IMG/VR virus record: IMGVR_UViG_3300009103_000157
Location: 1 to 23,776 of that record
Direction: 5' to 3' (one strand)
From: a virus
Length of the DNA stretch: 23,776 nucleotides
Shown: piece by piece, positions 5,369 to 23,572 of the stretch
How positions within the stretch are numbered: the first letter of the stretch is position 1
How the letters are laid out: the number at the start of each line of letters is the position of its first letter
Program-made: the position numbers and the translations under genes
The notes under the pieces: model-generated
What the model was told of the DNA's origin: nothing
Database searches by the model: none
Seen by the model: only the letters and a program-made list of their open reading frames with translations

Positions 5369-7063
5369 TTAGATATTCTCTAATCCTCTTACGTATACTT
5401 TACCATAGAAATCAGGTCGTACCATTTTCTTAGCATATCTAGTCATGATACCTTTTCTAGGTGTGAACGATGCTGGATCGTACACTAGAGGAGTCATCAT
5501 TAACGGGATATATGGTGCGAACACAGCTCCAGTTTCAAGGAATTGATTTCCTTTATAACCCATCAAAATAACGTTTTCCGTCATATAAGGGTTTTTATAA
5601 ACTGTAAATCTGCTGTTGATTGATCCGATTTTCTGAACACCCATAGCGTATTTGTTTTTGTCTCCAACGGAGTCAGCTGCAAATCCTGGGATAGATTCTA
5701 AAATCGTAGACACTTTCGGTGAAACTACCATAAAGTTGGCACCACCTCTAAGAGTCTTCTGGTGAATTATATTACTAACCTTTTGTAATTTGATACCTAA
5801 AGTTTGGTACCAAGACATTTTGGTATAGTATAATGAACCAGCAGCACCACCATCAGTAGCACCTTGGTAATCAACACCTACTAACGCATTCCAGTAATCT
5901 ACTGTATCAGCATCAGCAATCAACATATCTAAGATCTCTAAATCAATCTCCATAGAGATATATTCAGAAAGGATAGAAGTTAATTCTGCCTCAGCATCGA
6001 TTGAATGGTAAGCATTCAAATCTTGAGCAAATTCTGGTGTCCATTGTGCTTTCAATTTACGTGTCTTAGCCGTAACTGAGTCACTTCTTAATTGAACATC
6101 AATGGTTGGGATATCTAAAGTAGATACAGCACCTGATCCAGCTGATGGAGCAGTACCTGTTCTATCTTCAAAATCACCTCTAACAGCACCTGCATCCGTA
6201 TCGTATGCATTTGGTTGTTTTTGGTAGGTGATTCCTATATCCGTAGCTGTTGCTGCAACCCATGCTGCGCTTGAAGCACTAACTACAAATTCTAAATTCC
6301 CACCATTAATTCTGGTAAATTGTGGGTATAAAGCATTTACTAATGCAGATCCACTAAGATCAAAAGCTCTAACACCTTCAGCATCAAAATTTGCTAATGA
6401 AGCAGTAGCTACAACCACATTGAATATAGTACCACTATTAGTTGCAATGGAAGCTGAAAACTCTGAATCATAATTGACTCTAGATAGGCCTGCATTTGTA
6501 GATAAATCGATAGATCCAGTTGTATATTCTGTTGCAGATGCTGCAGCAGCAATAGTTAATGCGGCAGACGCGGTCTCATTAATAGAGTATCCAAATCTAC
6601 CAGCACCATAAAGACCAGACTTAGCTGCGTCAGGTAAGTTTCTCTTTAGGTCACTTGAGGCACCATAAATAGAGCCATCAGCATTAAACCTTGGTTGAGC
6701 AGTTCCGTATTTGAAATCCAAGTAGAAGATAAGACCTGAAGGTAAGTTCATAGGTTGAACTGATACCAAATCTTTCGCTACAATTTCTCCAAATACCCTT
6801 CTCACCAATGGTAAGGCAACACCCGCCCACTGTTCTTGTGGTCCCGAGTTGGTTGCATATCCGGTAAAACCGGAAGTTTGATTGGCTTCTTTCACAAGCT
6901 GCTTCGCTTGGTTTTCAAGAAGCATCGCCATGTTGTTTGATTCAACTTCGTTGCCAATTCCTTCTAACAATCCAGTGGCATTCCACTTGTTTGCTAATTT
7001 GGAAGCTTGACCTTGAAGTGTCTTAAACGGGTTGGCGCTTTCTAAAAGGGATTTTATTTCCAT
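5369..7063 (-). CDS. Major capsid protein, gp23-type, 564 aa
   Basis: This encodes the precursor of the main shell protein. Residues 76-115 (LVRRVFGEIVAKDLVSVQPM and then NLPSGLIFYLDFKYG) align by eye with the T4 gp23 segment VRRAIP...VQPMNSPTGQVF. The C-terminus, FTPRKGIMTRY to FYGKVYVRGLENI, matches the gp23 end. The 564-aa length slightly exceeds T4 gp23 (521 aa), with extra Ala/Ser-rich sequence around 170-310, probably an insertion domain. The first ~59 residues should be a propeptide: QLVKE ends at E59, just before ANQTSGF, close to where T4 gp23 is cut (after E65). The gene follows the scaffold by 23 bases and ends before a strong terminator. No Shine-Dalgarno sequence is visible; the leader is almost pure A/T. 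Confidence 0.95.
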   Translation of the reverse strand: MEIKSLLESANPFKTLQGQASKLANKWNATGLLEGIGNEVESNNMAMLLENQAKQLVKEANQTSGFTGYATNSGPQEQWAGVALPLVRRVFGEIVAKDLVSVQPMNLPSGLIFYLDFKYGTAQPRFNADGSIYGASSDLKRNLPDAAKSGLYGAGRFGYSINETASAALTIAAAASATEYTTGSIDLSTNAGLSRVNYDSEFSASIATNSGTIFNVVVATASLANFDAEGVRAFDLSGSALVNALYPQFTRINGGNLEFVVSASSAAWVAATATDIGITYQKQPNAYDTDAGAVRGDFEDRTGTAPSAGSGAVSTLDIPTIDVQLRSDSVTAKTRKLKAQWTPEFAQDLNAYHSIDAEAELTSILSEYISMEIDLEILDMLIADADTVDYWNALVGVDYQGATDGGAAGSLYYTKMSWYQTLGIKLQKVSNIIHQKTLRGGANFMVVSPKVSTILESIPGFAADSVGDKNKYAMGVQKIGSINSRFTVYKNPYMTENVILMGYKGNQFLETGAVFAPYIPLMMTPLVYDPASFTPRKGIMTRYAKKMVRPDFYGKVYVRGLENI

Positions 7064-7086: not shown

Positions 7087-8334
7087 TTAATTAATATTCG
7101 CTAACTTTTTAAATCTAGCAACTGTTTCATTTACTGGTTGAGCTTTTCTGGTCCTATTTTCTTTAATAAGTCCCGTAGCTTTAGAAGCAAATGATTTTGG
7201 TTTTATAGACTCTTTAAGTTGTACTTTAACAGAGTTAAATGTTTCGTTCAGTGTATTGTAAATTATTTTGGCTTCTTTTGTATTGTCAGCTTGATCTAAT
7301 GAATCAACCACTTTAATTTTTTGGTTTTCTGTTAGATTGTAGGCTTTAAAAAGCTTATTAACATACAATAACTTTGAATTTAATACATTAACTTCGTTAA
7401 GTTTTCCTTTTTGGTACTTGATTACTTTGTAAGCTTCGTTTAATTCAGCTTTCATTTCGTCAAGTTCCTCGTCAGATGGTTCTTCTTTCATCATACCTGC
7501 TTGGGTTCCTGCATCGCTTTTTTTAGCGAATTGTCCTGTGTCTACCTTTTTAGACTTAAACATTTTTTTATACCATGGAAGACTTTCAATTGTGTCTTCT
7601 ATAGCACTATGAACCTTTTTTAATTGTTCAGGGGACATTCCTGGAAGTGTTCCTCCACCTTTTAATTTTTCAACACTAGCATCTGGTAAGTTTTTTCCTG
7701 TTGCTTCTTTATAGGCATTTTTAGCAGCATCTGCTATTTGTTGTTCTGCGGAACCACCTAAGATTCCTGCTCCCAACATTCCTAAAGCGAGAGCACCTGT
7801 GATTGCTAAACCTGTTGCTACTACTTCATTTTGTGGTTCTTTATCTTCATTATCATCTTCAGACAATTCAGCTAAAAGTTCATTAAGGTCGATTTCTTCG
7901 TCCATTTCCATCTCATTTAAGATTTCTGTAAGGTCGATTTCTTCATCTAACTCTTCTTCTTCTTTTGGAGCTTCAGACACTTTGCCTTCTTCTCCTGTTT
8001 CTTCGGTAGCTCCACCTTCTTCTAATTCTAGTTCAGCTAAAATTTCTTCAAGAGAAATTTCTTCGTCCATTACTTCTTCATTTGCTTCGGGGTTTTCACC
8101 TTCACCTGCTTCATCAGCTTCATACATATCTTCTTCTACGTTTTCGTCTTCATAAAAACCTTTTGGGTCTTCATTTATTTCTTCTTCTAACTCTTCAGTT
8201 AGTTTAGCAGATAACATAGATTTAAGTTTTGGTGTAAAAGCTTCTTCTAAAGCAGCCTTAGCATTTGCAAGAGCAGTGTTGCGAACAGTCTTAGCGTCAG
8301 CGATAGCTTCCTTTAATAGATCATTTTTTGCCAT
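7087..8334 (-). CDS. Prohead core scaffold, gp22-like, 415 aa, with an inserted hydrophobic region
   Basis: This is the probable main scaffold of the prohead core, between protease and capsid genes as in T4 (21-22-23). It is rich in Glu/Asp, Lys and Ala. The N-terminal helix MAKNDLLKEAIADAK is followed by an acidic middle with three copies of EEIDLxEILxELE (residues 91-104, 131-144, 146-159). The C-terminal third (about 290-370, KLNEVNVLNSKLLYVNKLF) resembles the conserved gp22 region. Two features are odd. A glycine/alanine-rich hydrophobic stretch of about 24 residues (171-194) resembles a membrane segment. About 85 further residues with a different character follow it. Near the C-terminus GLIKENRT matches the proposed protease motif, and VARFKKLANIN ends the protein. 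The start is preceded only by an A-rich leader. Confidence 0.85.
   Translation of the reverse strand: MAKNDLLKEAIADAKTVRNTALANAKAALEEAFTPKLKSMLSAKLTEELEEEINEDPKGFYEDENVEEDMYEADEAGEGENPEANEEVMDEEISLEEILAELELEEGGATEETGEEGKVSEAPKEEEELDEEIDLTEILNEMEMDEEIDLNELLAELSEDDNEDKEPQNEVVATGLAITGALALGMLGAGILGGSAEQQIADAAKNAYKEATGKNLPDASVEKLKGGGTLPGMSPEQLKKVHSAIEDTIESLPWYKKMFKSKKVDTGQFAKKSDAGTQAGMMKEEPSDEELDEMKAELNEAYKVIKYQKGKLNEVNVLNSKLLYVNKLFKAYNLTENQKIKVVDSLDQADNTKEAKIIYNTLNETFNSVKVQLKESIKPKSFASKATGLIKENRTRKAQPVNETVARFKKLANIN
7885..8067 (-). repeat. Short direct repeats encoding EEIDLxEILxELE in the scaffold gene
   Basis: The plus strand has aaggtcgatttcttcgtc at 7885-7902 and nearly the same sequence at 7930-7947. 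A more diverged copy ends with aaatttcttcgtcc near 8067. They encode three acidic amphipathic helices of the scaffold. The near-identity of the first two at DNA level suggests fairly recent duplication or slippage. Confidence 0.7.
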
Positions 8335-8465: not shown

Positions 8466-9083
8466 CTACCTGTTAAACTGGCAGATCCCTGTGTTGCAGC
8501 AGATGATATCACTTATGATACTGTTGACTGCATCATATCGATATATTGGGGAAGATATGTTTTCATTTAGTTGACTTACTGGCTGAACATATGCTCCGTG
8601 TGTAGAAGGGGTAGATACAAAATCCCAACAAAGTAGTTCAAAGTCGTCTTGTACTTCAACTGTGTTACTTTCGTATACTTCTTTAACTGAACCTAAACCT
8701 CTAGATGAGATTCCTACTGTGAGTCCTCTGTTGAATAAAGTTTGGAGTATTCTACCTGATGGAGTGTCTAAAACTTCTATTCTTCCTATAACATCGTCTC
8801 CATCCCACCAAACATCTCTTACTACGTGGCAAGTATTTCCTAAGTTGATTACTTGAGAGTCTGGATGATCTAATTCACCATATGCTCTATTTTGAGCTAT
8901 TGGTCCTTCTTTATAATTTTTAATTTCTCTGTCTAGAATTTTTTTAGGGTAAACTCGGCCGTTTTGGTTTTTTTCTCCGGCCTTTTGAACTACTCCTTCA
9001 ACAATAAGAGGGCCGTTGCCTTTTCCTTCGGCTAATACTTTTTTAAAAACAAATGGTCTATATTCTACTAAAGTTTCTTTCAT
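8466..9083 (-). CDS. Prohead core protease, gp21-type, 205 aa
   Basis: This is a serine protease of the T4 gp21/herpesvirus assemblin type. It matures the prohead by cutting scaffold and capsid precursors. Near the N-terminus are LIVEGVVQKAGEKNQNGRVYP and PKKILDREI. Catalytic His73 lies in GELDHPD, and the serine is in GISSRG (Ser126 or Ser127). The length of 205 aa matches the family (T4 gp21, about 212 aa). The C-terminal IISDIICCNTGIC is a Cys-containing tail like those of phage relatives. The start codon overlaps the stop of the 140-aa gene (TGATG), so translation is probably coupled. The gene sits between gp67/68-position genes and the scaffold, as in T4. Confidence 0.93.
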   Translation of the reverse strand: MKETLVEYRPFVFKKVLAEGKGNGPLIVEGVVQKAGEKNQNGRVYPKKILDREIKNYKEGPIAQNRAYGELDHPDSQVINLGNTCHVVRDVWWDGDDVIGRIEVLDTPSGRILQTLFNRGLTVGISSRGLGSVKEVYESNTVEVQDDFELLCWDFVSTPSTHGAYVQPVSQLNENISSPIYRYDAVNSIISDIICCNTGICQFNR

Positions 9084-9505
9084 CAGTTTCCTAGTTCTTT
9101 AAGTTTATTGTTTAAGTGATTTATTCTTTCAGATATACGAGCTAAACGTTTGTTTGTGCCTTCGAAAAAATTCCCACCACCTAAGTTCATTTCTGTTTTG
9201 AGTTTAAGGTTGTATTCAACTATTTTGTCTACTTCTCTTAAATGTTTTTCAATCTCACGAACTGAATTATTCATTTGTTGGCGAGGATTGGTAACTTTCT
9301 TTTTAAATCTTCTATAGGATTCATTAACTGATTCTTCCCACTTTCTGTTTTTGTTAACTTTTTCCCAATCTCTCATTGAAGTAAAAGCTTTCGTAGTAGC
9401 AATTTGTTGTCCACCAGGTTGAACTAAAGCGCCAGTAGTAGACATTTCGTCTAAATGACCTTGTATTAGTTCTCTAATTAGTTCTCTTAGTTGGCTTGCT
9501 TTCAT
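9083..9505 (-). CDS. Small head protein with N-terminal tag helix, 140 aa (gp68 position)
   Basis: I do not recognise the family. The protein begins MKASQLRELIRELIQGHLDE, the same kind of LRxxIRE helix found on the uncharacterised proteins at the other end of the window. It then has MSTTGALVQPGG and a basic, coiled-coil-prone body (about 45-140), rich in Lys, Arg, Asn and Glu. The position directly before the protease corresponds to T4 gp67/gp68, small prohead core proteins, so a core role is plausible. LDE at residues 18-20 would fit the T4 protease rule (L/I-x-E). It overlaps the 92-aa gene by four bases and the protease gene by one. Confidence 0.8.
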   Translation of the reverse strand: MKASQLRELIRELIQGHLDEMSTTGALVQPGGQQIATTKAFTSMRDWEKVNKNRKWEESVNESYRRFKKKVTNPRQQMNNSVREIEKHLREVDKIVEYNLKLKTEMNLGGGNFFEGTNKRLARISERINHLNNKLKELGN

Positions 9506-12533: not shown

Positions 12534-14117
12534 CTATAGTAACCACCTTAAATCTATGTTATCCTTACCATGTTTCATGGACCAAGGATCTTCTTTAGGT
12601 CTGTTAGTGTATACTGTTTTTGTATCTTGTGTTGATTTTTTTATTCCGTTTAATGTTGCTTTTGTTAAATCTACCCCATGCTGTGCAAATTTAAGTGCTG
12701 TGTCTCTTACGTAACATACTGTCCCTAAACTCATGGTTAAATCATCGTTATATCCTTGTTGAGCTTCTGGTCTTCCATTTTTCCAAATAAAAGTTCTAAT
12801 TTCTTCTAAAGTTCTACTACATTTAATTGTAATAGATTTATCCTTCATATAAGCATCTAGTTTAGCTATTACTAAGGGTCTAGTTCTATTTGACATTGTA
12901 AATCCAGGTGTCATTTTTGTTTTATCTAGTATGTCATATCCTTTAGCTATCCAACTTTCAGCGTCTTGTGTTTTATCGTCTTTTGGAGAATAATATAGAT
13001 TTTGATACCCTCTATCAATTACTTGTTGAAGTACTGCCCACCCAATATTTGCGTTTTCTATTGCTAATAAAGCATTGTTATATTCGGTTGCTACTGATAC
13101 TAATATATTTCCGTAGTCTTTTGTGCCGATTTGGCTTTTAAAAGAAGCCACTTGAGTACAGGAATCGATATCTACTACATGAAAAGCAGAATAATCTTTA
13201 GCATCCCCTCTAGCAACATCTGCTACAACCATATAATTTTTTGAATAATCCGGATATTCCCATATCCAATAATCTCCGCCTATACCTCTTCTTTCTATAG
13301 GTTCACAAACATATGTTTTTTCATAAAATTCAAGTACTTCCGGTGGTATAACACTATTTCCAGAGGTTAAGAAATTACAATCACATTCTTGGGCTGCTAA
13401 TCTTTCTCCTAGTTCTTCATCTTGTTGGTCTCTCCACGCTTGGTCTCTTTCTGGATGTATATTCCAAGGTAATCTTAAAGGAATAAAATCATTTTCTTTT
13501 TCTTGAGCTTTTGCCCAAGTTCTATGGAATAGATTTCCTGTACCGTTTGGTGTGGATAACATTATACATTTACCACCTGTTGCTAGGGTTTGTTGTGCAG
13601 AAGCCCATATAGGGTCTATTTTATTTGGTTCTACAAACGCTGCTTCATCTAAAATCAATAAAGATATGGCTTCAGATCTTGCTGCGTTTTCACTCGCTGC
13701 TATCGCCTTTACCTGCGACCCATTTACCAGCCGTAATGATAATCTGTTGTGTTCAACATTTTTAAGTTTAAGCCAACTAGGTAAATTGTCATACATTACT
13801 CTTACTTTTGTTACCAAGTTTTTGGCTGTTGCTTGAGTAGTAGCAATTACCAATATATTTTTATCTTTATTAAATAACATTAGATGTAGTGCTTGTCCTG
13901 CTGTTAGTGTTGATATTCCTAACTGTCTTGATTTTAATATTATGTTTCTATCATTTTTAGTTAAAATATCTAATACTTTTTCCTGAAAGGGGTAAAGATT
14001 GAATTGGATTCTTCCTCTAGTTGGGTGTTGAATTTGACAATATTTTTTTAAAAAATATGCTGGACTTGAAACACACTTTATGTATTCTTGTTTTATTATT
14101 TTTTTAATCTCACTCAT
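12534..14117 (-). CDS. Terminase large subunit, gp17-type, 527 aa
   Basis: This is the packaging motor ATPase and nuclease. The N-terminal ATPase domain has a Walker A of the atypical phage form SRQLGIST (63-70), Walker B LLILDEAAF (153-161) with the catalytic Glu, and a coupling motif LSTPNG (188-193). The RNase H-like nuclease domain shows Asp300 in VVADVARGD, Glu354 in LAIENANIGW and Asp458/459 in GYNDDL. All three acidic positions are present, so the enzyme looks intact. The length suits T4-type TerL (gp17, 610 aa; marine relatives about 540). The protein ends IDLRWLL. The start overlaps the upstream gene stop (TAATG), so it is coupled to the lysis-like gene. No small terminase subunit was recognised in the window. 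Confidence 0.95.
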   Translation of the reverse strand: MSEIKKIIKQEYIKCVSSPAYFLKKYCQIQHPTRGRIQFNLYPFQEKVLDILTKNDRNIILKSRQLGISTLTAGQALHLMLFNKDKNILVIATTQATAKNLVTKVRVMYDNLPSWLKLKNVEHNRLSLRLVNGSQVKAIAASENAARSEAISLLILDEAAFVEPNKIDPIWASAQQTLATGGKCIMLSTPNGTGNLFHRTWAKAQEKENDFIPLRLPWNIHPERDQAWRDQQDEELGERLAAQECDCNFLTSGNSVIPPEVLEFYEKTYVCEPIERRGIGGDYWIWEYPDYSKNYMVVADVARGDAKDYSAFHVVDIDSCTQVASFKSQIGTKDYGNILVSVATEYNNALLAIENANIGWAVLQQVIDRGYQNLYYSPKDDKTQDAESWIAKGYDILDKTKMTPGFTMSNRTRPLVIAKLDAYMKDKSITIKCSRTLEEIRTFIWKNGRPEAQQGYNDDLTMSLGTVCYVRDTALKFAQHGVDLTKATLNGIKKSTQDTKTVYTNRPKEDPWSMKHGKDNIDLRWLL

Positions 14118-14575
14118 TAAATTAAAGCTATTAATGTTATAATGGGTAATACAATGGACCCTATAAAACCAACTATCTTTAAGGCTTTTTGTTTTCGAAT
14201 TTCTTTCTTTTGTTGTTCTATAACTTGATTTTTAATATCAATTTCTGTGTTTTTATTAGCTAAAATTTGTTCGAAGTTATCTATTATTGATTGTTGGTTT
14301 TCAGATTTTTGAGTGAGTTTGACTATAACATCTTTTTGTAAAGTTATAGTATTTGTGTTTAATGTATCTTTTCCTTTATAGACTGTAAGAAGACTATCAA
14401 CGATTTCATATTCTAAAAGATCGCTTAATACAATTTTAGCATCTTCTAAATTCATTAAAACTAAAGTATCACCGTCACTGTTAATTATCTCCTTGACTTC
14501 TCCTCTTGAGATAGTCTGAGATGTTGCTGGTAATATCATCACTATCCATATTGCTAATGATACTAGGTATTTCAT
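14117..14575 (-). CDS. Signal peptide-coiled coil-C-terminal membrane anchor protein, possible spanin component, 152 aa
   Basis: Residues 1-20 form a signal peptide (MKYLVSLAIWIVMILPATSQ) with a plausible signal peptidase I site after Ser19 and no lipobox Cys. A section with SRGEVKEIINSDGDTLVLM follows. Residues 85-130 are a heptad-like coiled coil ending KKEIRKQK, and residues 132-152 are hydrophobic (KIVGFIGSIVLPIITLIALI). This topology, exported N-terminus, periplasmic coiled coil and C-terminal inner-membrane anchor, resembles unimolecular spanins, except that the lipid anchor is missing. It overlaps the preceding 126-aa membrane gene by 95 bases in another frame, as Rz/Rz1-type genes do. 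A function in disrupting the outer membrane at lysis is inference; another envelope protein is possible. Confidence 0.65.
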   Translation of the reverse strand: MKYLVSLAIWIVMILPATSQTISRGEVKEIINSDGDTLVLMNLEDAKIVLSDLLEYEIVDSLLTVYKGKDTLNTNTITLQKDVIVKLTQKSENQQSIIDNFEQILANKNTEIDIKNQVIEQQKKEIRKQKALKIVGFIGSIVLPIITLIALI

Positions 14576-14861
14576 TTCTTTTTTTCTCTAATTCAGCTAA
14601 TTTGGTTTCAGTTTCTTTAAGGACAACTTTAGTGCTATCTATGGCATAAAGTATAGTATTGATTTCTTTTTGAAGTTTACTATTAATACTATTTATGCTG
14701 TCATTTGATAATAGTAATTGCGTGTTGTGGTCTTTTAAAGCTTTAATTTCATCCTCATAAACATCAATAGGTTTTGAAGGCCTAAAAATTAAACTTAAAA
14801 TAAGAGCAACTGCAAGTATTACTATAAAAATTAACTGTATACTATTTATTATTTTATTCAC
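14481..14861 (-). CDS. Inner-membrane coiled-coil protein, i-spanin-like, 126 aa
   Basis: Residues 8-26 form one N-terminal membrane helix (IQLIFIVILAVALILSLIF). It is followed by a short RPSKPID linker and a long periplasmic coiled coil (about 35-100). The C-terminus is Ser/Asp-rich with a basic LKRRSQG end. This is the topology of Rz-type inner-membrane spanins. The start is a GTG; the next in-frame Met is residue 105, so no ATG alternative exists. Six bases upstream lies an exact ATATTTATAA element overlapping the stop codon of the kinase-like gene. The 95-base overlap with the next gene supports a coupled pair. I see no holin or endolysin nearby, so the lysis role rests on topology. Confidence 0.65.
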   Translation of the reverse strand: MNKIINSIQLIFIVILAVALILSLIFRPSKPIDVYEDEIKALKDHNTQLLLSNDSINSINSKLQKEINTILYAIDSTKVVLKETETKLAELEKKRNEIPSIISNMDSDDITSNISDYLKRRSQGDN

Positions 14862-15420: not shown

Positions 15421-15669
15421 TTAATTTCTTACGTTAAACCTTGGGTCTTTATAAAAAGGAACCCCTTTCCAATCTCTTTTAGCTAATTTCCATTCTTCTT
15501 CAGTGTGTTGTATACCATATAAATAATATTCTCTTAATCTGTAGTTTCCTTCTGGAAGTAGAGCTGGCTCTTCCCATGAATGTAATTTATTGTTCCACAC
15601 AATCCTAATAGTCCCGTCAGGGCTTTTATATTTTTTAGATTGAGGAAACGGTGTTTTGACTTTTTTCAT
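15421..15669 (-). CDS. Small protein of unknown function, 82 aa
   Basis: No family is recognised. The protein is soluble, basic and rich in aromatic residues. KYKSPDGTIRIVWNNKLHSW suggests a small beta-rich fold, followed by LPEGNYRLREYYLYG and a helical EEEWKLAKRDWKG. No signal peptide, membrane segment or Cys is present. I take the ATG at 15669; an upstream TTG at 15687 would add six residues inside the FAD gene and is less likely. Even so, the gene overlaps the end of the FAD gene by 35 bases in a different frame and precedes the kinase-like gene by four bases, so it is tightly embedded in the operon. Confidence 0.7.
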   Translation of the reverse strand: MKKVKTPFPQSKKYKSPDGTIRIVWNNKLHSWEEPALLPEGNYRLREYYLYGIQHTEEEWKLAKRDWKGVPFYKDPRFNVRN

Positions 15670-16978
15670 TATAACTTTGTTTTTCAATTAAATTTTCTGC
15701 TGTGTAAATTCCTTGTGCACCTGATACTGTAATTCCCCTTGCACTTAAAGCGTCACCTACAAAATGTACATTAGGGAATTTAGTTAAAGATAAATTTTCA
15801 TAATTAACTAATGGTTCAGGTGATAAATATTTTACTTCAGGCATATAAATCCCCCAATCATTACCTAATGTTGGGAATACTTTTTTCATATCCTCAATAA
15901 AATCTTCTATATAAAAAGCGTAATCATCTAATGCTTCATATAATGATAACATACTATTAACTACTTCTACTTTTACATAATCACCTTCAGATGTTTTAGA
16001 TGGTACTCTGTGGCTAGGTGAATAAAATGTACCTTTACCATTTTTTTGTAATTTTTTAACTGCTTCTCTTGACCAATCAAAGGGTTTATCTATACCTCTA
16101 ATTTCCATTAATATGCCAAAATTAGTCATATCATTACGATATGCTTCATCTTTTTTAGCATGACCATTGTAACTATAATCTCCATAGGTATGTTCTGCTG
16201 CTACATAAGCTGCATTATTGTTTGTACAGAATGATCTTAATGAAACTCCTTTATCTTCAAATTTTCTATATAATTTAAAATCATAACTAATATCAATTAA
16301 TTTTTGGAAATGGTGTTGTGGTGCTTCAAATCTAACTCCTATTTGTACTGCTTTGGGTTCGGTTGGTAATTCATATTGTTCTGCTAATTTTTTACCAAAA
16401 TCAATTCCTGATTTGCCTACACCAAATATAAGTGTATCATAACTACCCTCAAGACCCCATGAAGTTGGAGATGTGGCTGATATTATTTGATTTTTAAAAT
16501 CAATATCAGTAACTTTAGTTTCCCATATAAAGTTAACACCCTTTTCAACTAAATAATCATACCAATTTTTTCCTATTTCATGTAAATAATCTGTACCAAC
16601 ATGCCATACAGGAAATAATTTTAAACCAAAATATGGTTTAATAAAATCAGGTTCTGCTTGAGGATCAGAACATTGTACTTCGGATGGGTTAGGATGAAAT
16701 CGTTTAAAGTTATCTATAACTTGGTCAAACAATTCCATTGCTTTTTCATCACCACAGTATTTAGATAATTGACCTCCTACTTCAGTATGGTAAGTTAATT
16801 TACCATCTGACCATCCTCCTGCTCCTAAAAAACCTGTCATTACTTCTTCAGGTTTTCTATTGTATGGGTCTTTACCCATATCGATAATTGTTATTTGTCC
16901 TTTGAAATTGTTGTCTACTAATTTTGTAGCTGCGTTTATTCCTGCTACTCCTGCTCCTACAATTACTACTTTATCCAT
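15635..16978 (-). CDS. FAD-dependent dehydrogenase (COG2509-like), 447 aa
   Basis: This is a flavoprotein of the FAD/NAD(P)-binding Rossmann superfamily. The N-terminus VVIVGAGVAGINAA carries the GxGxxG motif (G8, G10, G13). GFLGAGGWSDGKL (49-61) resembles the G-x-G-G-x-x-SDGKL signature of uncharacterised dehydrogenases of COG2509. The C-terminal NVHFVGDALSARGITVSGAQ (about 403-422) is the second FAD-binding GD motif followed by the G-I-x-x-S/A-x-x-G helix. The protein appears full length and intact, without signal peptide or membrane segment. The substrate is unknown. It starts soon after a strong terminator and heads a unit with an 82-aa unknown, a kinase-like gene, the spanin-like pair and terminase. 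A flavoenzyme here is unusual for T4-like phages and would count as an auxiliary metabolic gene. Confidence 0.85.
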   Translation of the reverse strand: MDKVVIVGAGVAGINAATKLVDNNFKGQITIIDMGKDPYNRKPEEVMTGFLGAGGWSDGKLTYHTEVGGQLSKYCGDEKAMELFDQVIDNFKRFHPNPSEVQCSDPQAEPDFIKPYFGLKLFPVWHVGTDYLHEIGKNWYDYLVEKGVNFIWETKVTDIDFKNQIISATSPTSWGLEGSYDTLIFGVGKSGIDFGKKLAEQYELPTEPKAVQIGVRFEAPQHHFQKLIDISYDFKLYRKFEDKGVSLRSFCTNNNAAYVAAEHTYGDYSYNGHAKKDEAYRNDMTNFGILMEIRGIDKPFDWSREAVKKLQKNGKGTFYSPSHRVPSKTSEGDYVKVEVVNSMLSLYEALDDYAFYIEDFIEDMKKVFPTLGNDWGIYMPEVKYLSPEPLVNYENLSLTKFPNVHFVGDALSARGITVSGAQGIYTAENLIEKQSYNEKSQNTVSSI

Positions 16979-17105: not shown

Positions 17106-18776
17106 TTATAGCTTGCTTATCATTGAAAAATCACCTTCTTCTTGGAATAAATTAATAGAAGTTAATCCTGGATCTGCTCCCCCAGGAGGTTGGATTGGTT
17201 TACTAAGTTTTATTTCTAATTCACCGGCTCCTATATTTGTAATAACCCCTGTTAGGTCATTATAATATTCCATTTCATCTTCAAATTCAAATTCCATCAT
17301 TTTTTCCGGGTTGAATTTTACTCTATCCCCTTCTTTATATTCTGAAGAATGGTCTTCTTTCAAACTATTAATAGCATACAACGATTTAATACCTGCCAAT
17401 TGTTGAAATCTTTCTGTTAGTAATCCTTTTTTAGATTTTTTAGACTTGTTTTCAGCTAAATTTTCTGCATCCCATTTATCATAATCTTCATCAGTAAAGT
17501 CATCATCATATTCAATTTTTTCTTCATCTCCAGGGAATACAACTTCGCCTGGTTCGAACATAAATTCCCAATATTTTTCAATACCTTTCATATTAGGAAA
17601 ATTAACAAAAATCCTATCATTGAATTTATCAACTTCCTTGACAGTGCCTTTCATATTTGGAGTGGGATAATCTATCTTTGAATGTGGTCCTTTTCTTGGC
17701 TTTGGTTCTGTTTTTTTATTAATCTCTATTCTTTCACCTCCTTTAACTACTATTACTTCATCACCTATTGCATAATCAGTAATTTCGTATTTTACATCTC
17801 CAAACCCATAATTGTCTTCAGGGTCTCTAAATCCTTCTTGTAATGTACTTTTAAACTTGGCAAATTCAGCTTTATATGTGTCCATGTCTAAAACTTTGTT
17901 AGTATCACTAATAATACCCATCGCTTTCATTTGATCCATAAAAGCTTTTACTTTCTGTTTTTTAGGATCTTGAGCTTGTGCTTGTGCTTGAGTAGCTTGT
18001 TGTACTACTGGATCATCGTCTGGTGCTAATTCTGGTGCCATTTCTGGAGCATCAAATTCGTCTTCTGGTTTTGGTGCAGCGGGTCTGCCTCTTCTTTTAG
18101 GTTCGGCTGATGTGTCAGGTTCAGCTGATTTTTTAAGATCTTCAGCATAATCAATATATCCTTTATCTCTCATTTTAGCTAAAATAGCATTTACAGGTTG
18201 AACTTTATCAAACCTTCCAATCGCTGAAACTATGTCTTGTGAAGTAAATGTACCTTGTCCTAAAACATCTAACATATTTGTAATGTCTTCTTCTGTGAAT
18301 TCTTTGGCTTTTCTTCCTCTACCACCAGCACCCATTGTTTTAGCTTTAATTCTGTCGTTTACTCTTTGTAAAAATGAACCCGCGTTTGTAAGTCTGTCTG
18401 TAAGTTTGTATGATTGGGCTTTTCGAGCCATTTCATCTAGATCAAAAAACTCACGTAAAGAAAGTGTTTCTTCTTCTAAATCTGCTTCTTCCATTGTGAT
18501 GATTAGATCTGCAAGTTCGTCTGCGTCTGAATCCCCACCCATATCCATTTCTTCAACGTTTTGGAAATGGTCGTCTGCGTCTGAAGAAACCCCTGTTGGG
18601 TCATTTCCAGTGTCACTAATATCTGAGGCTGGTTTTAAAAGTTCGTTGAAAGCTCCCCCCATTTTTGGGTCTTCTAAAGCGTCTTCTAAATCTTCAGTAC
18701 CCGGGTCTACTGTGTCTTCATCTACCATATTTGATAGTGCTTCTTTAACTAGTTGTTTTAATTTTTTATTGTCCAT
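17106..18776 (-). CDS. Tagged AT-hook protein with winged-helix-like and SH3-like parts, 556 aa
   Basis: I do not recognise this as a named family. The N-terminus MDNKKLKQLVKEALSNM is a tag-like helix sharing KQLVKEA with the capsid propeptide end. An acidic stretch (18-105) follows, then residues 160-217 (EEDITNMLDVLGQGTFTSQD to MRDKGYIDY), which read like a winged helix. PKRRGRPAA at 226-234 is a canonical AT-hook for minor-groove DNA binding. Residues 333-414 and 478-527 (YAIGDEVIVV, YKEGDRVKF) look like small SH3-type barrels. GLLTERFQQLAGI (451-463) separates them; it contains an L-T-E site like that of T4 gp23 and resembles the scaffold C-terminus. A DNA-binding internal head protein is my inference. 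The gene ends at a strong terminator. Confidence 0.75.
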   Translation of the reverse strand: MDNKKLKQLVKEALSNMVDEDTVDPGTEDLEDALEDPKMGGAFNELLKPASDISDTGNDPTGVSSDADDHFQNVEEMDMGGDSDADELADLIITMEEADLEEETLSLREFFDLDEMARKAQSYKLTDRLTNAGSFLQRVNDRIKAKTMGAGGRGRKAKEFTEEDITNMLDVLGQGTFTSQDIVSAIGRFDKVQPVNAILAKMRDKGYIDYAEDLKKSAEPDTSAEPKRRGRPAAPKPEDEFDAPEMAPELAPDDDPVVQQATQAQAQAQDPKKQKVKAFMDQMKAMGIISDTNKVLDMDTYKAEFAKFKSTLQEGFRDPEDNYGFGDVKYEITDYAIGDEVIVVKGGERIEINKKTEPKPRKGPHSKIDYPTPNMKGTVKEVDKFNDRIFVNFPNMKGIEKYWEFMFEPGEVVFPGDEEKIEYDDDFTDEDYDKWDAENLAENKSKKSKKGLLTERFQQLAGIKSLYAINSLKEDHSSEYKEGDRVKFNPEKMMEFEFEDEMEYYNDLTGVITNIGAGELEIKLSKPIQPPGGADPGLTSINLFQEEGDFSMISKL

Positions 18777-18790: not shown

Positions 18791-20104
18791 TTAATGAAAA
18801 GTTACCATAACAAATTCATTAATTTCTTCCGATATGGTTTCTTCGAGGTAATCACTTTTAAATCCTATTCTGGGTCTTAAGTTATTGTAAGCTACTTTTT
18901 CAAATTTGGCTCCCCCCTTCTTTAAACCCTTAACTATGTCCATAGGTTCCCCCTCGGCATAAATATATGTCCCATCACCACCACCAGCCCCAATATCGTG
19001 GACCATAAAATATTCAAACCCCTCTAATGCTATATATCTAACTACATTAAGGTAGGCTATAGTTTTGTGGATTGAGTCACTGTCTGAAAGATTTATGCTA
19101 TCAAATACTGTATCGAAGTGGGGGGATGCTAACTCTCCCCCTATGAGTAGGAATTCTTTAAAAGCATCCTTAAAATCCCCCTTATCAGTGGTGTTTTGGT
19201 AAGCGGCTGCGACAGCTTCCGGAAATTGATTTAATGTCGATATAGTTTCAATCTCCTTCCCATCTTTATCTTTTATTATATATTTAGAGATGTTTCCTCT
19301 TTTGTTAGCTTCTAAAAAGAGCCCAAAAGCTTCTAAGGGCTTCCAATATTTGAGGGTTTTGGTTCTTTTAAATATAACATCGGGAGTGGAACCTAAACTG
19401 GCCCCATTTCCTTTAATTTCAAATTCTTTTACATTAAGGGATAAATCTCCCTTTGCAGGCCTCATTTTTCCCGTAGGGTTTCCTTCTCTATCCTTTTCAG
19501 GCATAGGGACGGGAGCCTCAATATTTTTAAATATTAAAGCCATACCTAATTCTCCCATTCCTACTCCTCTACCTTTATCGTCAGTTGAAGTGTGTCTAAG
19601 TATGTTAGTTACTAAGGATTTAGGGACTTTATCCGTGGGGACTGCAGTGTATAGGTTTCCTGTGTTGTCTTTAGGGAAGTTGATTTGTTCTTTTGGGTTA
19701 TCTAAATATTTTATAAATTTCTTTTGCTGTTCTGGGCCCAACATTTCAATTACATCTTGTATTTCTTTAGCGTATCTTTTAAGAGTGTTTGCTTTGAATT
19801 TTTTATTTCCTAAGGTCTTTAAAATAGGTTTGTAAGAAGAAAAATTCGATATTCTGTTGTATAATATCCTTAAAGCATTGTCTGACATATCATCTATACC
19901 AACCCCCTTTAATAGCTTAAGTAATAATTCTTTAGTTATTTTTTCAGGTAATTGAGTGTCTTTGGTTTCAGGTTCTGGTTCTTCTTCAGTTAAAAGAGAA
20001 ACCATCTCAAACAGCCTTTTTTTATCCTCTTCACTATTAATGTCAGGATATCCTTTAGGAAATTTATAAGATATACTTTGTAAAAACTTATCCAATTCGT
20101 CCAT
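18791..20104 (-). CDS. Unknown protein with a PD-(D/E)XK-like pattern, 437 aa
   Basis: The protein opens MDELDKFLQSISYKFPKGYP and has a helical first half of about 150 residues. The middle contains GRGVGMGELGMALIF (Glu185), then KGDLSLNVKEFEIKGNGA. The order helix with Glu, then Gly-Asp (D220), then E-I-K (E229, K231) followed by a Gly-rich turn and a charged helix is the core pattern of the PD-(D/E)XK nuclease fold. I therefore suggest a nuclease-like protein, possibly active or possibly only a fold relative. A later GAGGGDGTYIYAEGEPMDIV segment is Gly-rich. It lacks the N-terminal tag helix seen in its neighbours. The start overlaps the metallopeptidase gene by 17 bases. Confidence 0.7.
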   Translation of the reverse strand: MDELDKFLQSISYKFPKGYPDINSEEDKKRLFEMVSLLTEEEPEPETKDTQLPEKITKELLLKLLKGVGIDDMSDNALRILYNRISNFSSYKPILKTLGNKKFKANTLKRYAKEIQDVIEMLGPEQQKKFIKYLDNPKEQINFPKDNTGNLYTAVPTDKVPKSLVTNILRHTSTDDKGRGVGMGELGMALIFKNIEAPVPMPEKDREGNPTGKMRPAKGDLSLNVKEFEIKGNGASLGSTPDVIFKRTKTLKYWKPLEAFGLFLEANKRGNISKYIIKDKDGKEIETISTLNQFPEAVAAAYQNTTDKGDFKDAFKEFLLIGGELASPHFDTVFDSINLSDSDSIHKTIAYLNVVRYIALEGFEYFMVHDIGAGGGDGTYIYAEGEPMDIVKGLKKGGAKFEKVAYNNLRPRIGFKSDYLEETISEEINEFVMVTFH

Positions 20105-20483
20105 TGTCTTTTTTATTTTTAATATTATCTTCCCAATCTCTTAACATCATATTACCTTTTAAATACGCTTCCATTTCCATTTTTCTCATATGTCCATCTT
20201 CTTGAGCATATCCTGGAGGTGTTTCTCTATCTCCTAAATCACCTCGTTCGTGTTGATGGTGATGTACTAACTCATGAGCTAAAGACCTAAGAATATCCTT
20301 AGGGTGTCTATTTGTTCTGTAAACCACAACCAAACTTTCCTGAGGAGAATAGTAGGCTGTTTTTCCAAGAAGGTTTTGAGAGTTTTCTTCATCGTCTCTA
20401 AGTTTTACTTGAGGTAATTTATCAAATTTGAGCTCTTTGTGGATCTCTTTGACTAAGGATTGTATGGCTTCGGTTAGATCCAT
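20088..20483 (-). CDS. Zinc metallopeptidase (HExxH), 131 aa, with tag-like N-terminus
   Basis: The zinc-binding signature HELVHHHQHE occurs around residues 70-79 (HExxH), preceded by HPKDILRSLA. The later KMEMEAYLKGN would supply a Glu as third ligand on a following helix, as in gluzincins. GKTAYYSPQESLVVVYRTNR forms the expected preceding beta strands. It is short, close to a minimal catalytic domain. The N-terminus MDLTEAIQSLVKEIHKELKF carries an LVKE helix like its neighbours and the capsid propeptide. The start overlaps the stop of the 340-aa gene (TAATG). A role in processing head or host proteins is plausible; the substrate is unknown. Confidence 0.85.
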   Translation of the reverse strand: MDLTEAIQSLVKEIHKELKFDKLPQVKLRDDEENSQNLLGKTAYYSPQESLVVVYRTNRHPKDILRSLAHELVHHHQHERGDLGDRETPPGYAQEDGHMRKMEMEAYLKGNMMLRDWEDNIKNKKDNGRIG

Positions 20484-21505
20484 TATGCTTCTGCTTCCGG
20501 TTCTTCAACTGGCTCCTCTTCGGCTGCCGGTTCTTCTTCAGCGGGTACTTCTTCTTCAGCCCCCATATCTTCTTCACCTTCTTCTCCCGGAGCATCTACA
20601 GGACCCATTAATAAATCATTAATCATATCTTGTGCTTCAGGTAAATTTCTATCATCTGATAAATCTATTTCATTTGCCCCTATTGTTAATAATAATCCAG
20701 TTTCATCAAAATACAGTAAAAAGCTATTTCCGTTTGTTAATACTACTTTTAGTGATTTTGGAGTCGAGTCCATAAAATTAACAAAATCAACGTACCTATC
20801 TATAGGCGTTAATCCTAATCTTTCTAAAGTTTGTTCTGCTTCTCGGGGAATAAATTCGGGTTTGTAGTGGTTTGGAACGAAAGCATCGTCTTCTTGGCCT
20901 TCTTCTTCATCTGCTTCGAGGAGGGACGGAATCATTTCTTTTATGTATTCCTCAAGTTTTTTTTTGGATTCTTTTACATTACCAATCTCTGCCTTTTTTT
21001 CTATCTTATTCTTGTCTATAGCTTTTTGTCTGGCTTTTAATGCTTGTGTCTCTAAGTCACCCGCTTCTATATCTTTTTGTGCTGCTTTTTTTTCTAAATC
21101 ATCGGCTATTTTATCTTCAGCTTCTCCCTCTCTTAACTTGTCTTCTTTTTCTTTAGCTTCTTTATCAAGTGCATCAGCAACTATTTTTGCTTCTAAAGCT
21201 CCTTTTTTCGCTTTTGTAACATCGTCTTCAGTGATTTCGTCTTCTTTGATCTCTTTTTGTTTCTTTTGAATAACTTTCTTAAACTCTTTAGACTTAGATC
21301 CGTCCTTTAAATTTTTAAGAACGTTTTTTAAAGACAAATCATCTTGGTCGTCTGTATCTTCAATAGCGGATTTCATTCTTTCTTTCCAAGCACTAGCTAA
21401 ATCACCTTTTTGTACTCTACCGTCTTTATCTTTATAGTATCCATATTTAGATTCTAAAATGGTCTTTAATTGTTTTCTGATGTGTTCTCTGAGTTGTCTG
21501 CTCAT
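20483..21505 (-). CDS. Tagged, highly charged coiled-coil protein, 340 aa
   Basis: No family is recognised. It begins MSRQLREHIRKQLKTILES, the LRxxIR tag helix. Residues about 70-185 are a Lys/Glu/Ala-rich coiled coil. KKLEEYIKEMIPSLLEADEE (182-201) is a second helix of tag type. Residues about 205-300 are a small globular region (RYVDFVNFMDSTPKSLKVVL, then LTIGANEIDL). The last 40 residues are an acidic Glu/Ala/Pro tail (EEEPAAEEEP and similar). This composition recalls prohead core or internal proteins. It is coupled to the metallopeptidase by a TAATG overlap. Confidence 0.75.
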   Translation of the reverse strand: MSRQLREHIRKQLKTILESKYGYYKDKDGRVQKGDLASAWKERMKSAIEDTDDQDDLSLKNVLKNLKDGSKSKEFKKVIQKKQKEIKEDEITEDDVTKAKKGALEAKIVADALDKEAKEKEDKLREGEAEDKIADDLEKKAAQKDIEAGDLETQALKARQKAIDKNKIEKKAEIGNVKESKKKLEEYIKEMIPSLLEADEEEGQEDDAFVPNHYKPEFIPREAEQTLERLGLTPIDRYVDFVNFMDSTPKSLKVVLTNGNSFLLYFDETGLLLTIGANEIDLSDDRNLPEAQDMINDLLMGPVDAPGEEGEEDMGAEEEVPAEEEPAAEEEPVEEPEAEA

Positions 21506-21550: not shown

Positions 21551-22963
21551 TTAGGTTTTTAGTTTCTGTTTGTAATTGTCAATGTCTTTATCTAATTGAT
21601 GGATTTGGCTTTTTTTCCTACTCCATATGTCTCTAAAGTTGTCTATTTTATTTCCGTAGGATTTGTCTTTGTTTCCTGGTTTAAATGTTTTTCTATGGGC
21701 TTTGAGGTCTGTTTCAATTTTTCTTAACTCTTTTTTGAGTTTTTCCATTTCCTTTTTAGCCTTTTCTAACTTAGGGCCATATTCCATCGATTTTATATTC
21801 TCTTTAATTAACGATTTGATATTTTCTCTAAGTGTTTTTTCCTCACATCCACCACAACCACAGCTACAACTTTTAGCTTCATTAATAGGTAGTTTTCTTT
21901 TAGCTATGGCAGTTAAAGCACTTCTTAATTGTCTTTTCATGTTTCCTGCTTCCCAATCTCCTTCACCATCTTCTTTCCAAAAAAACATATATTTTCTATC
22001 ATCACCTTCTCCTGCTATTTTAATTTTAAATTCGCTGTTTTTTAGTTTTTCAAATGGATATTTTGATTTTTTCCAATCATCTTTTGTTACTGTGTATTCA
22101 GTTTTACCTTCATTTAAAGCATATCCTCTAGGGTTGCTTAATCTCCCTTTAGGACGTCTTTGAAACCCGGTTGCGGCTGCTTTATCATATCGTTTTCTGA
22201 TAAGTTCAGGGTCATTATATTTATTTATCCTGTGTCCTATAGCAATACCGTGAGACCAAGGACTACCTTTTATATATTGTTTAAGCGCTTCTTTTATGTA
22301 GGATTTTAGTGATGATATTTCGTCCAATTCTTCTTCTAAACCTCCTGGAGTGTTTCTACGTTTTCTTCCTGTTACAGCATCGTATTTGTATCCACAAGTG
22401 CCTTCAAGTTGTGAAATATCTTCTGGACGAGTTGACATATCACCTACATCCACTCCTATATCGTCTTGAGAAGCTGAGAGTTCAAATTCATCGTCCCTTT
22501 TTGGCCCTCCTGCTTCTTCAAGAGTTCCATCAGATATTCTTTTTAAGACTTCTTTTTTAATATCATTGAGAATTTTTATTGCTTTTCCGCGGGTAATTTT
22601 CTTATGATCATGATCTACAAAAACATGACTATCTATATTTCCTTGATTGGTGTCAACTGAAAAGGAACCTAAAACATGACCTCCTCTAGCTAATTTTGGA
22701 TCCCATACATAAAACTTTCTACCATGTTCTCCCCACCTGTCAGGAGGACCTGCCCAAAACCCCTCAACTCTACGTCCATTTATTTTATCATCAAAGAAAG
22801 CATTAGATGATTTTGTTCCCCCTTTATGATAAATTAATTGTTCTTCATCGTCTCCTGCTCTTTTAATTTTATCATCATCACTTTGAAGGTTTCCTTGAGA
22901 ATCTACATACATTGCTTCTTCTATTGCTTGTTTAATATATTTTTCAAGTTGGCTTCTTTTCAT
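21551..22963 (-). CDS. Tagged multi-segment protein with a Cys cluster and coiled coil, 470 aa
   Basis: The family is not recognised. It begins MKRSQLEKYIKQAIEEAM, a tag-type helix. Residues about 40-150 form a globular region containing RRVEGFWAGPPDRWGEHGRK and FYVWDPKLARGGHVLG. Similar helices recur inside: LKSYIKEALKQYIKG (219-233) and TLRENIKSLIKENIKSM (377-393). Between them is a basic region, then KYMFFWKEDGEGDWEAG. Residues 366-373 hold four close cysteines (CSCGCGGC), a possible metal site. The C-terminus (395-470) is a Lys/Glu coiled coil. The start is one of the few with a Shine-Dalgarno-like AAGGA, four bases before the ATG. Confidence 0.75.
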   Translation of the reverse strand: MKRSQLEKYIKQAIEEAMYVDSQGNLQSDDDKIKRAGDDEEQLIYHKGGTKSSNAFFDDKINGRRVEGFWAGPPDRWGEHGRKFYVWDPKLARGGHVLGSFSVDTNQGNIDSHVFVDHDHKKITRGKAIKILNDIKKEVLKRISDGTLEEAGGPKRDDEFELSASQDDIGVDVGDMSTRPEDISQLEGTCGYKYDAVTGRKRRNTPGGLEEELDEISSLKSYIKEALKQYIKGSPWSHGIAIGHRINKYNDPELIRKRYDKAAATGFQRRPKGRLSNPRGYALNEGKTEYTVTKDDWKKSKYPFEKLKNSEFKIKIAGEGDDRKYMFFWKEDGEGDWEAGNMKRQLRSALTAIAKRKLPINEAKSCSCGCGGCEEKTLRENIKSLIKENIKSMEYGPKLEKAKKEMEKLKKELRKIETDLKAHRKTFKPGNKDKSYGNKIDNFRDIWSRKKSQIHQLDKDIDNYKQKLKT

Positions 22964-23061
22964 TTTCCTTGTTTTTTTTCTAAATGTCTATATAGTTTCC
23001 AAAACCCCCAAGCGAGACATAAAATTTGTATTTCCAATATGATATCTGCATCAAAATCCAA
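22960..23061 (-). CDS. Possible small membrane protein, 33 aa
   Basis: In the gap between the 173-aa and 470-aa genes, one minus-strand frame stays open and ends in a TGA overlapping the next ATG (ATGA). The peptide has a hydrophobic segment, IQILCLAWGFWKLYR, followed by a charged HLEKKQGK end, like a tiny membrane-anchored protein. The start is uncertain: there is no ATG, only TTG at 23061 or at an internal codon, and no Shine-Dalgarno sequence. A competing ATG frame directly after the previous stop encodes 23 residues without obvious features. It is reported because it fills an otherwise non-coding gap. Confidence 0.3.
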   Translation of the reverse strand: MDFDADIILEIQILCLAWGFWKLYRHLEKKQGK

Positions 23062-23572
23062 TAGGTGTTCGTTTAGGTTGGTCTTTGAAGTTTCCTTCAA
23101 AAATGTTTTTAATTGTTTCTAGTTTTAAATCCATAGATTGTAATACTTTATCCATTTTTTCACCCCCCCTAAGTGTTACATTGTCTAAATTTTGAATGAG
23201 TGATTTTCCCATCCTATTAATATTTTCCATATCTTCCCACATAGTTTGGTTTGCTCCTGGAACTACAGGTCGATCAATGTCGTAAGGGGTTAAATGACCT
23301 GTTTTAGGAACCAAATAATCATAAATATCATTGGCATTTCTGCCTATATTATCTATTAGTGGTTTTTTTCCTTCAAATCTGCTTGTAACAAGGTTAGCCA
23401 ATTCCATGAAAATTCCTGAAGGTTGGTTGCTTCCTTGGGGTATATCAAAAAATTTAGAAAATTCTCTTTTAAAACCACCAGAGTAGTCTGTTTTACCTTT
23501 AAAACCTATTTGTTTTGGGAGTTGGCTTTCAATTTCTTCTCGGATGATATTTCTTAGTTGTTTGATTGTCAT
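23051..23572 (-). CDS. Tagged protein of unknown function, 173 aa
   Basis: No family is recognised. It begins MTIKQLRNIIREEIESQLPK, the clearest example of the LRxxIRE tag helix in this window. IGFKGKTDYSGGFKREFSKF follows, then a mixed helical region with MELANLVTSRFEGKKPLIDN and YDYLVPKTGHLTPYDIDRPV. It ends in a helical section (about 120-165) and a basic KDQPKRTPIGF tail. No membrane segment, Cys cluster or enzyme motif is visible. The ATG lies three bases after an exact AT-box. It heads the run of tagged genes. Confidence 0.75.
   Translation of the reverse strand: MTIKQLRNIIREEIESQLPKQIGFKGKTDYSGGFKREFSKFFDIPQGSNQPSGIFMELANLVTSRFEGKKPLIDNIGRNANDIYDYLVPKTGHLTPYDIDRPVVPGANQTMWEDMENINRMGKSLIQNLDNVTLRGGEKMDKVLQSMDLKLETIKNIFEGNFKDQPKRTPIGF

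Follow-up and report, generated by a model that had tools for sequence, protein, structure and literature searches.

In phage T4, the protease gp21 cleaves after L/I-X-E, CTS propeptides carry cargo into the core of the head, and the internal proteins are ejected (PMC9026906). The ejection proteins of phiKZ and SPN3US carry propeptides that are cut at several sites with the motif A/S-X-E (PMC10052503). The DarA and Hdf proteins of phage P1 lie inside the head facing the DNA, and one of them has a cleaved N terminus (PMC12810830). Polyvalent proteins, which occur in phages and in conjugative elements, are multidomain chains predicted to be packaged and injected, and to be released by proteolysis (Iyer et al. 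2017, PMC5512222). Among the proteins that marine T4-like phages carry in their heads, most match no family. Here we describe P0001, which is probably a mosaic prohead-core precursor, targeted by tags and cut by an S77 protease, that would leave DNA-binding cargo in the head together with the DNA to act after injection.

The window, the whole stretch of DNA analyzed here, comes from IMG/VR and is a fragment 23,776 bases long. Its source is a marine T4-like phage related to Flavobacterium phage immuto; by terminase, the closest isolates are immuto itself (57%) and Microcystis phage Mel-JY01 (53%). The genome has a GC content of 33%. P0001, a 556-residue open reading frame on the minus strand (the earlier note names no strand), lies within a head cluster in which terminase, portal, S77 prohead protease, scaffold and major capsid protein are all found on the one record (Table 1). 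Beside the head genes lies an FAD/NAD-binding oxidoreductase (15635-16978, minus strand), an odd enzyme at this place that has at least 589 relatives in the phage group. Directly before the terminase, two small membrane-type proteins overlap in different frames (14117-14575 and 14481-14861, minus strand); the pair, perhaps spanin-like, also occurs in relatives, for example in L141. The product of 18791-20104 (minus strand) is untagged, carries a possible nuclease-like signature, VKEFEIKGNG, and has a similar-looking counterpart in immuto (L208:17467-18528).

As a direct query, P0001 returned nothing from INPHARED, IMG/VR, PDB, Pfam or PHROGs apart from one meaningless match (E 0.5), and its homologues were reached only through neighboring genes and through the domain of one homologue. 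The winged-helix branch comprises 42 unique IMG/VR homologues covering P0001 residues ~113-245, and a second branch comprises 25 IMG/VR proteins, many of which have the helical segment at residues 269-316 in common with P0001. The relatives retain a layout consisting of an N-terminal tag, a domain and then usually RGR[P/K] or a similar motif, with tags present on all or nearly all complete homologues.

Table 1. Features of P0001 and of related genes, with positions in the window
Feature	Position	Strand	Evidence
P0001, mosaic head-core precursor (predicted)	17106..18776	-	ORF; homologues with matching layout
N-terminal CTS-like tag, residues 1-20 (MDNKKLKQLVKEALSNMVDE), predicted cut after E12	18717..18776	-	tag pattern, capsid-site comparison
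Acidic linker, residues 21-115, LRE and LDE sites at its end	18432..18716	-	site scan
Basic motif RGRK, residues 153-156, ahead of the first helix	18309..18320	-	motif scan, alignment
Winged-helix core (likely), residues 162-214	18135..18293	-	AF2, weak Pfam matches, alignment
AT-hook PKRRGRP, residues 226-232	18081..18101	-	motif scan, alignment
Helical segment, residues 269-316 (VKAFMDQMKAMGI...), common to second branch of relatives	17829..17972	-	homology
Possible KOW/SH3-like module, residues 317-440 (putative)	17457..17828	-	sub-threshold KOW matches
Second tag GLLTERFQQLAGIKSLY, residues 451-467, resembling scaffold C terminus	17376..17426	-	motif comparison
C-terminal module, residues 475-556, following SLKE (SH3-like putative)	17109..17354	-	homology search, AF2, Pfam, joint site
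Major capsid protein; predicted maturation site NQAKQLVKE/AN, KQLVKEA residues 54-60 (6884-6904)	5369..7063	-	PHROG 138; nine distinct site variants
gp22-like scaffold; C terminus ETVARFKKLANIN = second-tag motif	7087..8334	-	position and C terminus alike in immuto, Mel-JY01
S77 prohead protease, presumed processing enzyme	8466..9083	-	Pfam 1e-32, PHROG 207
Tagged protein adjoining protease (MKASQLRELIRELI)	9083..9505	-	tag scan
Neighboring two-tag protein, tags at residues 5 and 184	20483..21505	-	homology to free-standing tagged proteins
Neighboring multi-tag protein, N-terminal tag and internal tags at residues 219, 378	21551..22963	-	tag scan
Neighboring tagged protein (MTIKQLRNIIREEI)	23051..23572	-	tag scan

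The CTS-like tag is described by the pattern ^M.{1,7}[LIVFYM]..[LIVFYA][IVLF].E, which opens 50 of the 219 body-unrelated families from the related loci and the window, as compared with 3.7 expected from shuffled N termini, and which is found at none of 171 internal methionines. Among 71 T4 genes, it matches ipII, ipIII and gp2 only. Because the IPIII propeptide is an experimentally known CTS and the IPII propeptide is identical (PMC9026906), the pattern can be used to detect CTS propeptides. The tag patterns were composed after examples had been seen, and the families derive from single linkage of mechanically called genes; the T4, internal-methionine and shuffle controls therefore outweigh the raw counts. 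By these controls, the tag-type N terminus (MDNKKLKQLVKEAL) pointed out in the earlier note is real and non-random, and its LKQLVKE/A fits the same pattern that picks ipII and ipIII. The P3 position of this site is a valine (VKE), outside the strict T4 motif L/I-X-E. In addition, the heptamer KQLVKEA is common to the P0001 tag and to the predicted cleavage site of the phage's own major capsid protein, an agreement that arose in 8 of 200,000 shuffles, and the capsid stretch NQAKQLVKEAN lies close to where the 65-residue propeptide is cleaved from T4 gp23. RGR[PK] goes together with tags in the gene models (64 tagged versus 2 untagged), a link that stems mostly from two homologous branches and was discarded as independent evidence. 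A third type of N-terminal tag, F(D/N)L(K/R)(K/S)(Y/F)L(A/V/T)E, is seen in immuto and marine relatives (L208:18567-19568, L208:19568-19867 and L170:1468-1902).

The second tag of P0001, LLTERFQQLAGI at residues 452-463, copies the C terminus of the gp22-like scaffold. This C terminus takes an RFQQLAGI form in the window, in immuto and in Mel-JY01; the same motif also opens unrelated small proteins and lies inside P0001 at residues 456-463. We count 96 occurrences versus 0.4 expected, the distinct contexts being C-terminal in 30 cases, N-terminal in 13 and internal in 14. Both this tag and the modular layout of P0001 are absent from the earlier note.

The order within the winged-helix family runs from the N-terminal tag through an acidic linker, the winged helix with its hook and optional inserts to a second CTS-like tag (TMSELEKYIKQVIKEA, with an apparent fossil start methionine), a coiled-coil-like part, the scaffold-type tag and an optional C-terminal module. 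The modules vary strongly between close phages, and relatives of P0001 display mosaic layouts with several unrelated domains in one chain. Unrelated modules that lie between tags in the relatives almost invariably terminate in (L/I/V/M)xE, which resembles the motif of the T4 prohead protease. Across the 12 distinct inserts of at least 79 residues, a script finds [LIVM]xE just ahead of the following tag in 11, and inspection by eye finds it in all 12 (the pattern splits GLRE of L225), while 26% of random 9-mers from these mosaic proteins contain it; since several inserts are homologous, the twelve cases are not fully independent.

The neighboring genes show comparable arrangements. Residues ~182-336 of the two-tag neighbor match free-standing tagged proteins of 137-165 residues in relatives, and its internal tag falls on the N-terminal tag of these homologues. 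A small zincin-like metallopeptidase with weak matches to M78 and MPTase-PolyVal (HELVHHHQHERG; 20088-20483, minus strand) is free-standing here and a module of a 907-residue protein in immuto. The tag-aligned homologues, together with the metallopeptidase that is free in one phage and fused in the other, suggest that genes have been joined, or split, at tags. Residues 245-362 of the multi-tag neighbor share 71% identity with a module of an 829-residue mosaic protein in L137. The modules, tags, joints and homologues are thus seen in the sequences themselves.

AF2 modeling of the aligned set gives a helix-strand-helix-helix-strand topology at residues 162-213, with a local pLDDT of ~67-77 and the second wing strand not resolved. 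The Pfam model LexA_DNA_bind is touched by 30 of the 33 family members (best E 0.003, below the cut-off), and MarR, Crp or TFIIE winged-helix models are weakly matched by other members, every match lying under the curated Pfam cut-offs. A Foldseek search with the winged-helix model found nothing at E <= 0.001, the best PDB match being a winged helix at E 0.49. On the strength of the topology and the LexA_DNA_bind matches, we retain with moderate confidence the winged-helix-like part that had been noticed earlier.

The basic motifs lie on both sides of this domain. Across all six frames of the window, RGR[PK] occurs twice, both times inside P0001 (RGRK at residue 153 and RGRP at residue 229). 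RGRP arises in 0.21% of shuffled P0001 sequences and [KR]RGRP in 0.02%, and the AT-hook core, RGRP with a basic flank, is present in the protein. The PKRRGRP reported in the earlier note is thus present above chance, but the word canonical should be used with care: P0001 has no match to Pfam AT_hook even at E <= 1, a search for which the motif is too short to be fairly tested, and the winged-helix relatives have RGRK. Directly after the domain, every winged-helix member long enough to cover the position has RGR[PK], apart from L202 and L206; the canonical hook is confined to P0001 and six second-branch members, the others being degenerate (RGRK, RGPK). Ahead of the first helix there is a basic patch, KRPKKR in relatives and RGRK in P0001. 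Taken together, the AF2 fold, the weak Pfam winged-helix matches and the flanking RGR[PK] and basic patch make a winged helix with basic arms likely in P0001, and the conservation of winged helix and hook makes it plausible that the protein binds DNA.

The two SH3-like parts described in the earlier note could not be established. At residues 317-440, two KOW matches coincide at one place with E values of 0.24-0.26, below threshold, and residues 470-556 have no KOW or other Pfam match. The last 234 residues used as a query retrieved no relative, and each SH3-like part run on its own in phmmer --max gave no homologue either; past residue 316, the tag excepted, the homologue searches of P0001 found none. 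A single-sequence AF2 model of residues 316-556 has a pLDDT of 32 and is unusable.

P0001 contains 14 [LIVM]xE sites versus 11.6 expected (E12, E20, E76, E97, E102, E109, E115, E314, E381, E408, E442, E455, E474 and E495). This count equals chance and was rejected as proof of processing, so that only the positions of the sites are informative. None of them falls between residues 116 and 311, the region of the winged helix, hook and helical segment. The precursor has a pI of 4.5 and a net charge of -49, the predicted fragment 116-314 has a pI of 7.8 and a charge of +1, and the matching module of relatives is basic, with a pI of 9.8-10.3.

These charges bear on the proposal, made in the earlier note, that P0001 condenses the AT-rich genome inside the head in a nucleoid-like manner. 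Despite the presence of an AT-hook, the low GC content and the basic character of the second-branch relatives (pI 9.4-9.6), we consider this very improbable, given the strong acidity of the full protein, the single canonical hook and the neutrality of the predicted fragment. The net charge of -49 rules against bulk DNA condensation by whole P0001, and condensation of the genome by the whole protein is unlikely. The acidic precursor, the near-neutral fragment 116-314 and the site-free region of the winged helix and hook argue against whole-protein compaction and for a processed DNA-binding cargo; delivery with the DNA would also agree more closely with T4 than a bulk histone-like role does.

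A winged helix followed by an AT-hook is a common layout of transcription factors, and P0001 might accordingly be an intracellular regulator that acts on phage or host promoters during infection, its tags having another use, for example attachment to a shared partner or to the membrane. The FAD enzyme and kinase genes in this stretch, by which not all genes there are structural, would be consistent with such a role. We nevertheless think it improbable, since the CTS-like pattern finds known packaged proteins in T4, the N-terminal tag has seven residues in common with the end of the capsid propeptide, the motif of the second tag is that of the scaffold C terminus and the tags join modules at protease-like sites. 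These tags could also belong to a structural protein of the prohead core, tied to the scaffold, that builds or sizes the head and loses its fragments at maturation, with the winged helix as a protein-protein module. The whole precursor is acidic in the manner of scaffold proteins, the second tag resembles the scaffold C terminus and in T4 the majority of core fragments are lost from the head (PMC9026906), but the winged helix has a conserved basic patch and RGR[PK] on its two sides, the comparable module of relatives is basic, and strong variation of modules between close phages is expected of cargo and not of scaffold. A purely structural role therefore appears unlikely, though less so than the regulator.

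The earlier idea of a head or ejection protein finds good indirect support in the CTS-like tag, the scaffold-type tag, the S77 protease in the cluster and the heptamer at the predicted capsid cleavage site. By analogy with T4, we infer targeting and cleavage of P0001; that it binds DNA, is ejected and acts in the host is conjectural. In the cargo-precursor reading that we favor, the tags probably load P0001 into the growing head and mark the cuts of the head protease. The N-terminal CTS-like tag and the internal scaffold-type tag would bring the protein into the growing core, where the S77 protease would cut it at the (L/I/V)xE module joints, at about E12, E109/E115, E314, E442, E455 and E474. 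The predicted product is a fragment of ~200 residues (116-314), comprising the winged helix, AT-hook and helical segment, that would stay in the head with the DNA, as might one or two further small modules. Once injected, this fragment could be held on the incoming AT-rich DNA by its winged helix and hook, and may serve there in regulation or in protection from host nucleases. For the broader idea that two exchangeable kinds of head tag, the CTS-like and the scaffold-type, are connectors for polyprotein cargo built by fusing genes tag to tag, with one protease both removing the tags and separating the modules, we see an even chance. If true, it would amount to a polyprotein strategy that relies on the prohead protease, would supply new tags with which proteins could be loaded into phage heads, and would be a loading platform by which DNA-binding proteins and other effectors travel with the genome. 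With a readable tag code, head cargo could be listed and cut sites predicted from sequence alone.

The individual ingredients of this scheme, namely CTS with gp21 cleavage, polyvalent proteins and multiply cut propeptides, are already known (PMC9026906, PMC5512222, PMC10052503). In the open-access literature, we found no report of repeated CTS or targeting tags as joints of polyprotein cargo, of a scaffold-C-terminus tag or of AT-hook head proteins in such phages, although such reports may exist elsewhere. P0001 resembles IPI-IPIII and Alt of T4 in its short N-terminal stretch ending in hydrophobic-x-E, in the S77 protease within the head cluster and in a conserved tag with variable cargo behind it (PMC9026906). 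Whereas the T4 internal proteins have one N-terminal tag each, P0001, a protein known from sequence alone, has several tags of two kinds that join modules. With the phiKZ and SPN3US ejection proteins, it would have in common head cargo matured at multiple sites by a gp21-like protease (PMC10052503); there, however, the part that is cut repeatedly is a removed propeptide, while in P0001 folded modules are predicted between the sites and the motif is L/I/V-X-E. We see no sequence relation of DarA or Hdf of P1 to P0001, and neither an AT-hook nor repeated tags are described there. Like the polyvalent proteins, the P0001 family combines several unrelated domains per chain (PMC5512222). Polyvalent proteins are described as being cut by peptidase domains embedded in some members (PMC5512222). 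Pfam found no peptidase in P0001, whose joints resemble sites for a separate prohead protease, with a tag for each module.
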